Shown here: one piece after another, positions 32,174-37,860 of the stretch
Layout: the number at the start of each line of letters is the position of its first letter
Position numbering within the stretch: position 1 is the first letter of the stretch
Source of the DNA: Burkholderiaceae bacterium
GTDB lineage: Bacteria > Pseudomonadota > Gammaproteobacteria > Burkholderiales > Burkholderiaceae_C
NCBI GenBank assembly: GCA_023954035.1
Contig: JAMLIT010000033.1
Span: forward strand, 1 to 41,070
Length of the DNA stretch: 41,070 bases
Direction of reading: 5' to 3'
The notes under the pieces: model-generated
Database searches by the model: none
What the model was told of the DNA's origin: nothing
The model's input: only the letters and a program-made list of their open reading frames with translations
Program-made: the position numbers and the translations under genes

Positions 32174-32413
32174 CTGATTTTTTCCTGCCCTTGCGTCCGA
32201 GGTGTTGTTTCAGTCATAGCCGCATTTTTGGCAGCCTGCGTGTGCCAAGGGCGGGGCTGGGATGTGCTCCGGCGCAGCTTTCGGATCACGCTGCAGCACA
32301 GCGAAATGCGTGCTCAGACCAACCGCCGATGAGGTTCATGGCCAAAGCGTGGGCGCTTGGTCCTACCATTGATAGTCTTGCTCACCACAGAACAGCTATC
32401 TGGAATTTCCCCC

Positions 32414-32872
32414 ATGCGGCGCTTCACCATCACCATTGACGACGACCTGGACGATAGGTTTGGAGTCCACATGTCATCTCGGGGGTATGCCAACCGTTCC
32501 GAGGCAGTGCGCGATCTCATCCGTCAGGAGATGAACCGAGAGCACGCCCAGCAACATCCGGCGGACCCGTGCGTCGCAGTCATGTCCTATCTCTATGTGC
32601 CGCAGCAGCGCAGCTTGGCGCTGCGCCTGATCGAGCTGCAGCGGGACAACGCGGGATTGATTGACTCCTGCACCGCGACACAGGTGAACGACGAATTGCG
32701 CATGGAAGTGCAGTTGCTGCGTGGGCGGGTGTCGGAGGTGCGCGCCTATGCCTGGTCGGTGGTCAGTCTGCCCGGGGTCACGCACGGCGAGGTACAGCTG
32801 CGCGTGGCACATGGCGCCTTGCGCGACGAGTTCATCCCCGCTGCCGACATGCCTCGGCCCAACGGAGGCTGA
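32414..32872 (+). CDS. NikR-family ribbon-helix-helix regulator lacking the nickel ligands
   Basis: A 152-residue protein aligning over its full length with NikR. The DNA-binding ribbon-helix-helix (RRFTITIDDDL...GYANRSEAVRDLIRQEM, residues 2-40) is well conserved, followed by the ACT-like ligand domain (VMSYLYVPQQRSLALRLIELQ). Gap-free alignment to H. pylori NikR puts R77, A88, Q90 and R96 at the four square-planar nickel ligands (three His and one Cys there), so none is kept. It therefore probably does not sense nickel as NikR does. It converges on a five-gene Nik/Dpp-like importer 20 bases away. The start at 32414 gives the canonical N-terminus; 19 upstream codons are spurious. Symbol withheld because of the lost site. 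Confidence 0.88.
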   Translation: MRRFTITIDDDLDDRFGVHMSSRGYANRSEAVRDLIRQEMNREHAQQHPADPCVAVMSYLYVPQQRSLALRLIELQRDNAGLIDSCTATQVNDELRMEVQLLRGRVSEVRAYAWSVVSLPGVTHGEVQLRVAHGALRDEFIPAADMPRPNGG

Positions 32873-32881
32873 AGCTTCAGC
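32868..32881. other. Perfect palindrome at the end of the nikR-like gene
   Basis: GCTGAAGCTTCAGC is a 14-base perfect palindrome overlapping the stop codon of the regulator and lying 12 bases from the stop of the convergent ATPase gene. It may form a small hairpin in both transcripts; no T tract is present. Confidence 0.45.
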
Positions 32882-32892
32882 GATTGCGCGGA

Positions 32893-33489
32893 TCAGAGCG
32901 GATGGGGACGCGCACCGATGGCCTTCAGCAAGCCCTCGTCGTGGCTTATGGCGATGATTCCCAGCCCCGAGCGGCGCATCAGTTCCAGCAGGGCGTGCCA
33001 TATCTGCGCCTGGGTGATGGCATCGAGCATGGCAGTCAGCTCGTCAGCGATCAGCACTCGCAGGCCCGGCACAAAGGCTCGGGCGATCGACAGGCGCTGC
33101 AGCTCTCCCCCCGATAGTTCGTGTGGGTAACGCACGAGCCATTCTCGCCGAGCGCCGAGGCTGTCCAGCAACGAGCTGTCCACACCGTTCGGAAAGGCAT
33201 CACTTAGCTTTACCCGGGGGTTGAAGGCCAACTCGGCGTTCTGCAACACCAGCTGCACCGGGTGGGGTCGACCCCAGCGCCGGGGCTGCAGGGGACTCCC
33301 GTTCAGTAGCACCTCGCCGCGCTGCATCGGCAAGTGACCCGCCAGCAGTCGGGCCAGCGTGGACTTGCCGCATCCGGAAGGCGCACGCACGCCGACCACT
33401 TCACCCGACGCCAGGTGTAGGGACACACTGTGCAGTACCGGAGTGGCGTTGCCGGGCCAGATGTGGTGAATATTTCGGGCCTCAAGCAT
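32893..33489 (-). CDS. Nik/Dpp-type ABC importer, second ATPase (NikE/DppF-like)
   Basis: ATP-binding subunit of 198 residues, shorter than usual (about 260-330) because it ends soon after the H-loop and lacks the C-terminal oligopeptide-transporter extension. Walker A is APSGCGKST (36-44, A instead of the first G), Q-loop Q83, signature LSGGE at 125-129, Walker B VLIADE at 145-150 followed by LTAMLD instead of the common PTSALD, and switch histidine H183. All catalytic residues are present. It overlaps the first ATPase gene by eight bases and is last in the leftward operon. Confidence 0.88.
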   Translation of the reverse strand: MLEARNIHHIWPGNATPVLHSVSLHLASGEVVGVRAPSGCGKSTLARLLAGHLPMQRGEVLLNGSPLQPRRWGRPHPVQLVLQNAELAFNPRVKLSDAFPNGVDSSLLDSLGARREWLVRYPHELSGGELQRLSIARAFVPGLRVLIADELTAMLDAITQAQIWHALLELMRRSGLGIIAISHDEGLLKAIGARPHPL

Positions 33490-34315
33490 GGATAGGTTCC
33501 TCCCGCAGAGCGGCATGCCGCTCGCGCGGATCACCGGTCGCGGGCAGCTGAAATCCTAGCTGCGGGAGCGCACGGCGCAGGTTGCGGGTATAAGCCTCGC
33601 GCACGCGCCCGGCCATGAAGTCATCGGCTTCGACCGACTCCACACAGCGTCCCGCGTCCAGCACGACGAAACGGTTGGCTATTGCCGTCAGCGCCGCCAG
33701 GTCGTGGCTGATGACCAGCACCGTGCGTCCCTGGTCAGCCAGGCCGCGCAGGTACTGCAGACTCTGTCTGCTGGCTTGCGCGTCCAGCCCGGTGGTGGGC
33801 TCATCCGCGATCAGCAATTGCGCCTGCGCGACGGTCGCCATGGCAGTCAGCACGCGGCGCGCCATGCCCCCCGACAGCTCGTGCGGATAGTGCCGCTGCG
33901 CCACAGCCCCCAGTCCGCAGCGCGCCAGTTCCTCAACCGCTAGGGAAGCCCCCGAGGACTTTCCGGCGGCTTGGGCCGCCCAGGCCACCTGTCGCCGCGC
34001 CCGTGCGCTGGGGTCGAGATACGTCAGAGCCTGCGGCACCAGGGCCACGCTCCGGCCACGCAGCTGGCGCTGTCGCGCGGCGGTCAGGGGTTCACCCTGC
34101 CAGCGCATGGCACCCGTCACCCGGGCCGTGGGAGGCAGAATGCCCAGCACCCCGTGTGCCAGCAGGCTCTTGCCGGCACCGCTGGCGCCCACCAATGCCA
34201 CGACTTCGCCCGGGCGGGCGCTCAGGCTCACGTCGCGCAGCGATTCGCTGAAAGTGCGACGGAACCAGCCCGCGTAACGCACAAAGCCCACCGACAGCTT
34301 GTCGATCTCCAGCAT
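33482..34315 (-). CDS. Nik/Dpp-type ABC importer, first ATPase (NikD/DppD-like)
   Basis: ATP-binding subunit of 277 residues. Walker A GASGAGKS is at 43-50, signature LSGGM at 147-151, Walker B LLIADEPTTGLD at 167-178 and switch histidine H204. The C-terminal REAYTRNLRRALPQLGF segment resembles the start of the oligopeptide-transporter extension. It begins three bases after the NikC-like permease stop and overlaps the next ATPase by eight bases. With that subunit it should form the heterodimeric motor typical of nickel, dipeptide and metallophore importers. Confidence 0.9.
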   Translation of the reverse strand: MLEIDKLSVGFVRYAGWFRRTFSESLRDVSLSARPGEVVALVGASGAGKSLLAHGVLGILPPTARVTGAMRWQGEPLTAARQRQLRGRSVALVPQALTYLDPSARARRQVAWAAQAAGKSSGASLAVEELARCGLGAVAQRHYPHELSGGMARRVLTAMATVAQAQLLIADEPTTGLDAQASRQSLQYLRGLADQGRTVLVISHDLAALTAIANRFVVLDAGRCVESVEADDFMAGRVREAYTRNLRRALPQLGFQLPATGDPRERHAALREEPIHA

Positions 34316-34318
34316 GCT

Positions 34319-35179
34319 TTACTCCTGCGCGCGCCGCGGGTCGGTCATCAGACGCAGGGCCGAGCCCACGCGCTCAAAACTCAACACCATCAGCATCAGG
34401 CACAAACCAGGCCAAAGCCCCAACCACCAGTAGCCGGCGCTAAGGGTTCGCATGGCCTCGGACAGCAGGATGCCGATTGCCGGCAAATGCGGCTCCAAGC
34501 CAAAGCCAAGAAAGCTCAGCCCGGCCTCGTGCAGGACCGCATGCGGAAACAACAACACGCCGCCCACCAGTGCCTGCGGCAGCACGTGAGGCAGCAGATG
34601 GCACGACACGATGTGCAAGCGTGACGCGCCCAGCTGCCGGGTGACGACGATGTAGTCCTGCGCGAGTACGTGCCGCACCTCGGTGCGCACCACACGCGCC
34701 AGCGTGGGCCAGTGCGACAAGACCACCGCGATGATCACTCCTCTCGTGCCTCCGCCGAGCGCGAAAGACAGCAGCACGAGCAATACCAGGTGCGGAATGG
34801 CGGTCACCAGGTCCACCAGCACTCCCACCGCCGCGTCGAGACGACGATGGAAGGCAGCTACGACGCCCAGACACACTGCAAGCAGCGTCGCCAGCGTGGC
34901 CGAAGCCAGGCCCACCTGCAGACTCAGTGCCAAGCCCTTGAGCGTGCGGGTGAACACATCCCGGCCCAGCGGGTCGGTGCCGAACCAGTGGCCGGCACCG
35001 GGTGGCAGGCTGCGTGCGTCTAGCTGCGTGCGCAAGCCTTCGTCCGGCCAGACGGCCGCGCCGACGGCAATGCCGATCAGCAGGGACAGGGCCAGCACGG
35101 TACCGGTGAGCATGCCCAAGCGGTGGCCTGCGCGGAGCACCGGCACGCCGACCAAACGATCGAGCATGCTGGCGTTCAT
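34319..35179 (-). CDS. Nik/Dpp-type ABC importer, permease (NikC/DppC-like)
   Basis: Inner-membrane permease of 286 residues with an N-terminal helix, the family string HWFGTDPLGRDVFTR near 64-78, and five further helices. The EAA-type loop (ARQLGASRLHIVSCHLLP) contacts the ATPases. The start overlaps the NikB-like gene stop by four bases. Transport direction is import by family membership. Confidence 0.92.
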   Translation of the reverse strand: MNASMLDRLVGVPVLRAGHRLGMLTGTVLALSLLIGIAVGAAVWPDEGLRTQLDARSLPPGAGHWFGTDPLGRDVFTRTLKGLALSLQVGLASATLATLLAVCLGVVAAFHRRLDAAVGVLVDLVTAIPHLVLLVLLSFALGGGTRGVIIAVVLSHWPTLARVVRTEVRHVLAQDYIVVTRQLGASRLHIVSCHLLPHVLPQALVGGVLLFPHAVLHEAGLSFLGFGLEPHLPAIGILLSEAMRTLSAGYWWLGLWPGLCLMLMVLSFERVGSALRLMTDPRRAQE

Positions 35180-36192
35180 GCGCGGCGCTCCATGACCGAA
35201 CGCTGGCGTGGATCGATCAGCAATAGGAGCGCATCTGCCAGGGCGTTGCCGGTGAAGACGAAAAGCGCCGCCATCACGGCGATGCCCAGCAGAAGCGGCG
35301 CGTCGGCGCGCGTTCCAGCCTGGACCACTGCTTGACCCAGTCCTGGATAGGAGAACACCGTTTCGGCCAGCAGCGAGCCACCGAACAGTTCACCCAGGTG
35401 GGCAAACTGCAGCGTGATAGCCGGCAATGCAGCATTGCGCAGCGCATGCCGCCATGCAGCCCGCCAGCGCGTGGCGCCCTGCGCGTAGGCAAGGGTGGCA
35501 TAGTCGCTGGCCAACACCTCGCGCACTTTGTCGCGGGTATGCAGAGTGACTTGCGCCACTCCCAGCAGGCCCAGCGCGATGGCGGGCAGCACCAGGTGCT
35601 GCAGCCGCTGGCCCAGTGTGACCTCGTCGGGCAACAAACCCGACGGAGCGGCGCAGCAGGTAGGCGCCCAGGCGAGAACCACCGCGAACACGTTGAGCAG
35701 TACGATGGCCAGCCAGAAGGTGGGCGCCGAGGCCAGCATGAAGGCGTAGCCGCGGATGGCGCGGTCGAGCCAGCCGCCTTCGTGCACACCGGCCACCATG
35801 CCCAGGCCAAAGCCCAGCGTGCCAGCCAGCAACCAGGCCATGCCCATCAGCGCCAGTGAAGCACTAGCCCGTTCCATCAGCACATCGGCCACCGGGCGCT
35901 GGTAGATCATCGACTGTCCGAGGTCGCCTTGCAGGGCATGGCCCGCCCACTTGGCAAAACGTTCCGGCGCTGGGTCGTTCAGGCCCCACTTGGACTCGAT
36001 GGCGGGGCGCTGTTCTGGTGAGACGCGCAACAACTCTTCACCGACGAGCGCCCGCACGGGGTCGACGGGCGAGAACGTAACCAAGGCAAATGCGCCTGCG
36101 CTCACCAACGGCAGCAGCCACAGAAGCCTCAGACCCCGCCAGATCAACCAGCGTGGCCAAAAACGGCGTGCGGCAGTCAACGGCAGGTCCAC
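35176..36192 (-). CDS. Nik/Dpp-type ABC importer, permease (NikB/DppB-like)
   Basis: Inner-membrane permease, 338 residues from the chosen start. It shows the family pattern GDLGQSMIYQRPVADVLMER after the first periplasmic region, the EAA-type loop AYAQGATRWRAAWRHALRN, and the late GGSLLAETVFSYPGLGQAV motif. The frame is open to 36270, but that part overlaps the binding-protein gene. I chose GTG at 36192, which has GGAAG seven bases upstream and overlaps the binding-protein gene by 16 bases. TTG at 36180, overlapping the binding-protein stop as TTGA, is the alternative. No ATG fits. Confidence 0.88.
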   Translation of the reverse strand: MDLPLTAARRFWPRWLIWRGLRLLWLLPLVSAGAFALVTFSPVDPVRALVGEELLRVSPEQRPAIESKWGLNDPAPERFAKWAGHALQGDLGQSMIYQRPVADVLMERASASLALMGMAWLLAGTLGFGLGMVAGVHEGGWLDRAIRGYAFMLASAPTFWLAIVLLNVFAVVLAWAPTCCAAPSGLLPDEVTLGQRLQHLVLPAIALGLLGVAQVTLHTRDKVREVLASDYATLAYAQGATRWRAAWRHALRNAALPAITLQFAHLGELFGGSLLAETVFSYPGLGQAVVQAGTRADAPLLLGIAVMAALFVFTGNALADALLLLIDPRQRSVMERRA

Positions 36193-37784
36193 TTCCAGGC
36201 TTCCAGGTTCCAGGCAATGGGCAGGCCGTGGCCATGCGGCTCGATCTGGCGCGGACCAATGTCCAGGCAATTGCTTACAAAGTAGACGTGGTCCAGGTTC
36301 ACCAGCCAGGCCCAGGCCGCGTCACCGCGCATGCCAAAGCCGGTCTTGCCGTCCCACATGGCGTTCTTCCAGTGCGGGATCGATGCGTCGAACGAGGCCG
36401 ATTTCTGCGCTGCATCCAGGTGGTGGTTGACCTCCGGGTTGTCATAGAAGCCGGTGTTGTAGAAGCCCTTGCCAGCGTTTTGGCCGTGGTAGAGCTGTGC
36501 GATTTCCAGCGGATCGTGGCTGCCCCAGCCAAACACCACCGGCTGGCTGTGCGCCTGAGGCATGATTTCGTCCCAGCTCTTGCCCGACGGTTCGATGCGG
36601 ATGCCCAGCGGGCGCACCATGTCGGCCACGGCCAGCGCCAGTGCCTGGCGCTCCTGTCGCCCGGCGGGGTACATCAGGGTGAAGCGGGCCGGCACGCCGT
36701 TTTTCTCCAGCATGCCATCGCCATCGCTGTCACGCCAGCCGGCCTTGGCCAGCAGAGCCTTGGCGCCAGCCAGGTCGCCGTCGGGAAGGCGCGCAGCGGG
36801 ATTGTCCCAGGCCAGGCCGTCGGCCACACCCCAGGCCGGCGTGGCGAAACCGTTAAGTGCGCCTTCGGCCAGCTTCTTGCGATCCACTGCGATGTTGATG
36901 GCCTGGCGGATCGCGGGGTCCGAGGTGACCGGGTTACCAATGGGGGCGCCCTTCTCGGTCTTGCGACCGGTTACTGGCTGCACCGGAAATGCCAGTCCGC
37001 GGTTGTCCACCGTCTTGGCCGCCAACCGCTTCATTCCGGCAGGCACCTCCTTGGCCAGCGCGGGAGGCACGGCCGCCACATCTAGCTGGCCCGAGCGCGC
37101 GGCGGCAAAGGTGGCGTCTTCGCCGACGAAGAGCCAGGTGATGCGCTCGAATGGTGACCGGGTGCCGTAGTAGTGAGGGTTGGGCATCATGATCACCTGC
37201 TGCCCTGGCGTCAACGACACGAACTGGAATGGACCAGAGCCCACTGGCGCCTTGGCGTAGTTCGCCCCGTAGGCGTGCGCCGGCAGGATACCCAGGGACA
37301 CCATCATTTGCATGAAAGTGATGCGCGGCCTCTTGAGCACGAAGACCACGGTCTGGTCATCGGGCGTGTCTGCTCGGTCCATGAAGGTCAGGTCCAGCGT
37401 GCCGCCCGCGTTCTTGGCGGTATCGAAGGTGAATTTCACGTCCTTGGACGTCAGGGTTTGGCCATCCGAAAACTTCACGCCGGGGCGCAGTTTCACCGTC
37501 CAGAGCAGACGGTCGGCCGAGACCGCCCATTCGGTGGCCAAGTCGCCCACCAGCTTGAGGTCGGCGTCGCGTTTGAGCAAGGTCGACTGGAACAGCAGCG
37601 GACCATGTTTGCCCCAGCCTTTGATGGGATCAAAACCTTCTTCGGGCTCGGCCCCCATCGCCAGCACCAGTCGATTCTTGGTTTGAGCTGCCGCGGGCAG
37701 TGATAGTGATAGGGCAGACACGCTGACAGCACCGAGCAGGGCAGATGCAATGGCGGATCGAATAGGGACAACAGGTCGGGACAT
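36177..37784 (-). CDS. Nik/Dpp-type ABC importer, periplasmic binding protein
   Basis: Extracytoplasmic binding protein of the SBP_bac_5 family (NikA/DppA/OppA type), 535 residues. The signal peptide ends near residue 34 (PAAA-QT). The mature part opens LVLAMGAEPEEGFDPIKGWG and contains LKLVGDLATEW and the VKLRPGVKFSDG motif of the family. It shows fair likeness to nickel/metallophore binders, but the ligand cannot be read from the sequence. Clusters such as GHGLP near the C-terminus and the tail WNLEAWKWTCR with a terminal cysteine are noteworthy. GGAG lies seven bases before the ATG at 37784. It is first gene of the operon, behind an AT-rich promoter region. Confidence 0.9.
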   Translation of the reverse strand: MSRPVVPIRSAIASALLGAVSVSALSLSLPAAAQTKNRLVLAMGAEPEEGFDPIKGWGKHGPLLFQSTLLKRDADLKLVGDLATEWAVSADRLLWTVKLRPGVKFSDGQTLTSKDVKFTFDTAKNAGGTLDLTFMDRADTPDDQTVVFVLKRPRITFMQMMVSLGILPAHAYGANYAKAPVGSGPFQFVSLTPGQQVIMMPNPHYYGTRSPFERITWLFVGEDATFAAARSGQLDVAAVPPALAKEVPAGMKRLAAKTVDNRGLAFPVQPVTGRKTEKGAPIGNPVTSDPAIRQAINIAVDRKKLAEGALNGFATPAWGVADGLAWDNPAARLPDGDLAGAKALLAKAGWRDSDGDGMLEKNGVPARFTLMYPAGRQERQALALAVADMVRPLGIRIEPSGKSWDEIMPQAHSQPVVFGWGSHDPLEIAQLYHGQNAGKGFYNTGFYDNPEVNHHLDAAQKSASFDASIPHWKNAMWDGKTGFGMRGDAAWAWLVNLDHVYFVSNCLDIGPRQIEPHGHGLPIAWNLEAWKWTCR

Positions 37785-37828
37785 GCGGTGCTCCAGAAAG
37801 GAAACGGAAGCGTGGAAGCCGGGCACCA

Positions 37829-37860
37829 GTATGACATATTATTTATTTGTAATATTAAGA
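37829..37860 (-). promoter_or_regulatory. AT-rich promoter/operator region of the Nik-like operon
   Basis: A sharp AT-rich island 45-76 bases before the binding-protein gene. It contains ATATTA (37836-37841) and its complement TAATAT (37850-37855), eight bases apart, and on the plus strand GTATGA at 37829-37834, identical to one half of the E. coli NikR operator (GTATGA-N16-TCATAC). The second half-site is not present at the correct spacing. TAATAT on the minus strand is a -10 candidate. Confidence 0.45.

Follow-up and report, generated by a model that had tools for sequence, protein, structure and literature searches.

We propose that a gene in the 41,070-nucleotide stretch of Burkholderiaceae DNA analysed here (the window) probably encodes a transcription factor that derives from NikR, no longer has the His3Cys nickel site and is still selected as a working regulator, within a cassette that also encodes a Ynt-type transporter. 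Going by sequence comparison, retained function without the canonical nickel site seems the best reading, given that none of the four ligands is left, the domain for DNA binding is conserved and the gene evolves under purifying selection. The 5.5 kb formed by the regulator and the Ynt-type cassette (Table 1) is common to two genomes, both of which also encode NiFe-hydrogenases. NikR serves as a textbook case of metal sensing, with the four ligands taken as its defining feature. Conserved NikR relatives that do without these ligands, located by nickel importers and some of them preceded by the classic operator, offer a natural way to test how much NikR control depends on the metal and how the signal of a metal sensor can change.

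Table 1. Features of the regulator and transporter cassette in the window (L066, the locus of Hydrogenophaga sp. NFH-34).
Feature	Position	Strand	Remarks
NikR-like regulator, 152 aa from ATG	32414..32872	+	RHH and NikR_C, without His3Cys ligands
Four former ligand codons	32642..32701	+	R77 32642-32644, A88 32675-32677, Q90 32681-32683, R96 32699-32701
ABC ATPase 2, Ynt-type transporter	32893..33534	-	start codon uncertain
ABC ATPase 1, Ynt-type transporter	33482..34315	-	
Permease C (BPD_transp_1)	34319..35179	-	
Permease B (BPD_transp_1)	35176..36270	-	start probably 36192 from comparison with L066
Substrate-binding protein (SBP_bac_5), YntA-related	36177..37784	-	start set at 37784; listed ORF from 37826
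Block common to window and Hydrogenophaga sp. NFH-34	32350..37853	.	86.2% over 5512 columns
TGTCATACT	37828..37836	-	common to L066; includes one half (TCATAC) of E. coli-type NikR box
Weak dyad ATATTA-N8-TAATAT	37836..37855	-	at site of CAGATTAC-N6-GTAATCTG in L066; candidate operator

Both domains of NikR were recognised in the regulator, RHH_1 at the N-terminus with 26.0 bits (Pfam cut-off 20.5) and NikR_C at the C-terminus with 48.5 bits (cut-off 22), and residues 1-128 align with E. coli NikR (1q5v) with an E value of 7.5e-21 in phmmer. The protein scores above the cut-off of the NCBI model NF002815 for the nickel-responsive regulator NikR (117.8 against 83) and below those of the NCBI NikR models TIGR02793, NF003381, NF001884 and NF002169. 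The initial annotation had described the ribbon-helix-helix as conserved, and this is borne out not only by the RHH_1 score but also by R3, T5, T7, E30, R33 and D34, which are unchanged in an alignment of 84 distinct NikR-like proteins. Of these residues, R3, T5 and T7 are what we take to be the DNA-contact positions of NikR. E30 and D34 are ligands of a potassium site in NikR, according to PMC7055735. The regulator is the single NikR_C match in the window genome and, likewise, in that of Hydrogenophaga sp. NFH-34.

The nickel ligands of NikR are given as H76, H87, H89 and C95 in the same source (PMC7055735), and in a multiple alignment R77, A88, Q90 and R96 of the window protein fall on these residues of E. 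coli NikR. The claim that this is a NikR homologue with all four nickel ligands replaced thus stood, as both Pfam domains pass, the R/A/Q/R columns are confirmed and the orthologue is the same; the alignment behind it had been called gap-free, which is true of the ligand region and not of the whole protein, where short gaps occur in the inter-domain linker against the E. coli, H. pylori and P. horikoshii chains. A misalignment hiding His or Cys ligands was considered and rejected, as the columns are identical in the alignments to all three. The conserved H62 is also gone: the window protein has P63 where all 73 proteins with the intact site (HHHC) have His. C95, H87, H89, H76 and H62 are invariant among those 73 proteins and all five are absent from the window regulator. 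In the first set of 84 distinct NikR-like proteins, from which the window's own copies (L001, L036, L067 and L107) were left out, 72 are HHHC and the RAQR combination is confined to the window protein and the Hydrogenophaga one. By its predicted fold the regulator is a relative of NikR. Because the defining His3Cys site is missing, it ought not to carry the label of a nickel-responsive NikR, although it may still act like NikR with a different input.

Partial changes at the ligand positions occur elsewhere among the NikR-like proteins. Two of them (L047 and L057, genomes G268 and G331) have H/R/Q/C, a partial loss, and form a supported pair of their own in the tree. Another two (L062 and L030, HHQR and HHHR) have Cys95 replaced by Arg, one of them also with His89 to Gln, so one replacement of the window protein also occurs singly. 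A separate NikR-like group (L029, L033, L034, L035 and L139) carries CHHM, FHHM, YHQV or RHHT, the position of Cys95 being M, V or T, and an ABC ATPase gene lies near four of its members. The NikR-like frame of L032 (genome G073) looks broken, since in the latter half of the C-domain it no longer follows the family.

A scan of genome contigs, of a kind that detects close relatives only, gave one close orthologue, that of Hydrogenophaga sp. NFH-34, with 93% identity to the window protein over residues 1-149 (91% over all 152 columns) and with identical residues at the R/A/Q/R positions. The 5.5 kb block is the only blastn match between the window and L066. The gene is rare: it was found in one of the 26 genomes of the genus, the window's own, and 70 of the 399 genomes of the family have a NikR-like match, of which the best besides the window's show 39-46% identity over at least 129 residues, together with one 79-residue fragment at 49%. 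In codons 47-131, the comparison of this one pair by the Nei-Gojobori method gave 1.0 non-synonymous against 30.0 synonymous changes, which argues that the ligand-less domain is under purifying selection and not in decay. The dN/dS of this stretch is 0.008; for codons 1-46 it is 0.096, for the tail 0.71 and for the whole gene 0.087. The five transporter genes gave 0.08-0.17, and the C-domain 0.009 by the same method. Five of 100 transporter-gene windows of 78 codons match the constraint of the C-domain, four of them in the binding protein. In this one sequence pair, few parts of the cassette are as constrained as the ligand-less C-domain, which is nevertheless not unique.

The regulator lies tail-to-tail with five minus-strand transporter genes in both genomes that carry it, and its link to the transporter is thus kept. 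The binding protein matches, over its length, the YntA structure 4ofl ('extracytoplasmic nickel-binding protein YpYntA') with an E value of 1.1e-136, an unnamed solute-binding entry (3ry3) scoring slightly higher, and two permeases and two ATPases are encoded in one run with it. According to PMC2667541, YntABCDE is a nickel ABC system distant from NikABCDE. By the tests applied to its genes, the transporter is a predicted nickel ABC system of the Ynt type. The binding protein has no match at E 1e-100 in the 398 other genomes of the order (399 in all). Among 28 plasmid records with a relative of it, six were inspected, and in Azospirillum, Shinella, Labrenzia and Paracoccus yeei the order of the transporter genes is identical, with a divergent nikR that encodes an HHHC protein; the cassette of P. 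yeei adjoins urease genes. In Haematobacter no nikR is annotated at the binding-protein locus, and the annotation around the Leptolyngbya relative holds none either. On the Haematobacter plasmid NZ_CP035512.1, a NikR-like match without an annotated gene (L072) adjoins the Ynt-type binding protein. As for possible uses of nickel, the window genome and that of NFH-34 each have two strong loci for the NiFe-hydrogenase large subunit, the former with one short additional match, and urease alpha was found in the NFH-34 genome and not in the window genome (89.5% complete).

The E. coli-type NikR operator, whose consensus we take to be GTATGA-N16-TCATAC, is found between the genes of the four alphaproteobacterial cassettes with 0 (Azospirillum and Labrenzia), 1 (P. 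yeei) or 2 (Shinella) mismatches. In the window cassette the best matches have 5 of 12 mismatches upstream of the binding-protein gene and 6 upstream of the regulator, the corresponding numbers in L066 are 5 and 4, and the whole window holds no such site with at most 2 mismatches. Before the binding-protein gene, TGTCATACT and the adjoining dyad give only a hint of a possible operator; the dyad was equalled by 127 of 1000 shuffles in the window and by 2 of 1000 in L066.

Predicted ligand loss is not unique to the window lineage, as a clade that we call xSPx (a name coined here for an alphaproteobacterial group of 10 loci, L109-L117 and L128) and one RQPY protein are also without the site. A phylum-wide search, in which 38 of 398 genomes matched at E 1e-12, gave a protein with L/S/P/A at the ligand positions, and in its family 10 of 248 genomes matched, nine with xSPx proteins and the tenth (L118) with an HHHC protein. 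In the nine, H87 is replaced by S, H89 by P and C95 by A, M, S or T, H76 is L, Q or, in two, retained as His, and H62 is also lost; they form one group in the tree with a support of 100/100. A further xSPx protein (LSPS, L128) is encoded on a plasmid of Roseomonas marmotae next to transporter genes of the CbiM/CbiQ type and a few genes away from urease accessory genes. The search in the class matched 12 of 289 genomes: the query's own, nine with HHHC, one with RHHT and one with RQPY. The enlarged set has 79 HHHC proteins among 102 distinct ones, which is not a natural frequency, part of the set having been found with an xSPx query.

Clear nickel/cobalt-uptake genes lie beside seven of the 10 xSPx loci, namely NikKMLQO-type genes at four (L108, L126, L119 and L128), a CbiM-type gene with a NikO-like ATPase at L120, and Ynt-type transporters at L121 and L122. 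L124 has an SBP_bac_5 protein and permeases whose identity to those of Ynt is only 31-32%, no clear nickel importer is seen among the neighbours of L123, which include DUF4198 genes, and none was recognised among those of L125. An operator with 0-2 mismatches is present upstream at eight of the 10 loci (L108, L126, L119, L120, L121, L122, L124 and L128), and none of that quality precedes L123 and L125. The RQPY gene (L140, 6858-7912), a third ligand-less type, is divergent from a HupE/UreJ gene, a nickel/cobalt-uptake neighbour, and has a perfect GTATGA-N16-TCATAC box upstream. As controls, the HHHC gene of the xSPx family (L118/L127) has no operator, and none of the nine HHHC genes from the class search has one with at most 3 mismatches in the 250 bases upstream, which means that the box is no mere mark of every NikR gene. 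Since the operator lies upstream of eight of the 10 xSPx genes and of the RQPY gene, these regulators, in contrast to the window lineage, have apparently retained their DNA target.

Automatic names seem to be unreliable for such proteins because NF002815 accepts the window protein and all five other ligand-less proteins scanned, these with 99-148 bits against the cut-off of 83. TIGR02793, which is stricter, accepts none of the ligand-less proteins scanned, and the Roseomonas xSPx protein is publicly recorded as a nickel-responsive regulator NikR. A literature search found no title on ligand-less NikRs, and the print record may still hold some.

L032, whose frame is broken, and L098, which is the same gene as L109, were left out of the tree. 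In the best tree the window pair falls in a 12-row group whose other ten members are HHHC proteins from the family of the window genome (support 98/93), and xSPx is placed elsewhere. The stem branch of the window pair is long, with 2.68 changes per column against a median of 0.23 for end branches. Forcing the window pair and xSPx into one clade lowers the likelihood by 8.7 log units, a constraint that the AU test does not reject (p-AU 0.28). In a tree of binding proteins (10 rows), the window pair joins Azospirillum, which has an HHHC NikR, with a support of 99/96, apart from the two that are linked to xSPx. It is likely that separate ligand losses in the window lineage and in xSPx are a better reading than one joint clade.

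Nickel shifts H. pylori NikR towards the DNA-binding conformers, and the signal passes via the beta-sheets of the C-domain (PMC7949043 and PMC9860126). For a NikR relative that is without the site, three possibilities are left: a lock in one state, a different site or a different signal. The window regulator would bind DNA at the cassette promoters and control the transporter, its DNA binding would no longer answer to nickel at the standard site, and the protein would be either fixed in a single conformation or governed by some other signal acting at the remodelled C-domain. The first of these options, a metal-free NikR that is permanently closed or open and acts as a constitutive repressor or activator, with salt bridges of the arginines replacing the metal and no signal sensed, is the strongest rival, if a doubtful one. 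It accords with the arginines at two ligand positions and with the xSPx loci, where the operator kept at eight of 10 suggests that operator use without the site is common; however, a regulator without input is hard to reconcile with the very low rate of change over the whole C-domain, and the salt bridges find no backing in a structure prediction from two-sequence input (monomer, mean pLDDT 42.5, pTM 0.33), which was too poor for use. Between a signal-binding role and a locked tetramer, the constraint seen throughout the C-domain tips the balance slightly towards the former.

Somewhat less probable still is that nickel or another metal is sensed via a new site or via a low-affinity site at E30 and D34. 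C53, C86, H48, H124 and D84 are identical in the window protein and L066, and the conservation of the first four in the pair therefore makes another metal site possible; in addition, E30 and D34 are retained, the adjoining transporter is of the nickel type, and H. pylori NikR can use alternative coordination sites under some conditions (PMC7949043). On the other hand, the five residues invariant in the 73 HHHC proteins are all gone here, and between two near-identical sequences the conservation of single residues weighs little. That the gene is a decaying NikR pseudogene is very improbable: the long stem branch and the absence of an E. coli-type operator from the cassette would fit, but the frame is open in two genomes, the linkage to the transporter is retained and dN/dS is low both gene-wide (0.087) and in codons 47-131 (0.008), a substitution pattern between the window and L066 on which decay was rejected.

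Within the preferred reading, a regulator retained without the canonical nickel site, an anionic ligand would fit R77 and R96, which are the same in both orthologues. Another metal and a metallophore, also suggested in the initial annotation, are no more than candidates for the ligand. A more specific proposal, which we regard as speculative and on balance unlikely, is that NikR has more than once been made into a nickel-blind regulator of nickel uptake, and that the window C-domain was rebuilt for a non-metal, possibly anionic effector (held in the former nickel pocket between R77 of one subunit and R96/Q90 of the next) together with a new operator. In that joint proposal the rebuilding of the C-domain would correspond to the long stem followed by near-stasis.

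Compared with the NikRs of E. coli (1q5v), H. pylori (2ca9) and P. horikoshii (2bj1), the window regulator has the same two-domain build of RHH and NikR_C with R3/T5/T7 and E30/D34, and it too adjoins a nickel-type transporter; however, it is without all four ligands and H62, and its cassette is without the E. coli-type operator. The five transporter genes resemble YntABCDE in that they are in the order of the plasmid-borne relatives and the binding protein matches YntA (4ofl), whereas the window regulator is at the 3' end on the opposite strand, tail-to-tail with the transporter; in the four alphaproteobacterial cassettes nikR is divergent. The xSPx group shares with the window regulator the loss of the canonical site and, in nine members, of H62. 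It has DNA-contact positions of the same kind, and most of its loci adjoin nickel/cobalt-uptake genes, two of them Ynt-type transporters, but it differs in having its own replacements (H87S and H89P), a His-rich tail and the operator at eight of 10 loci.
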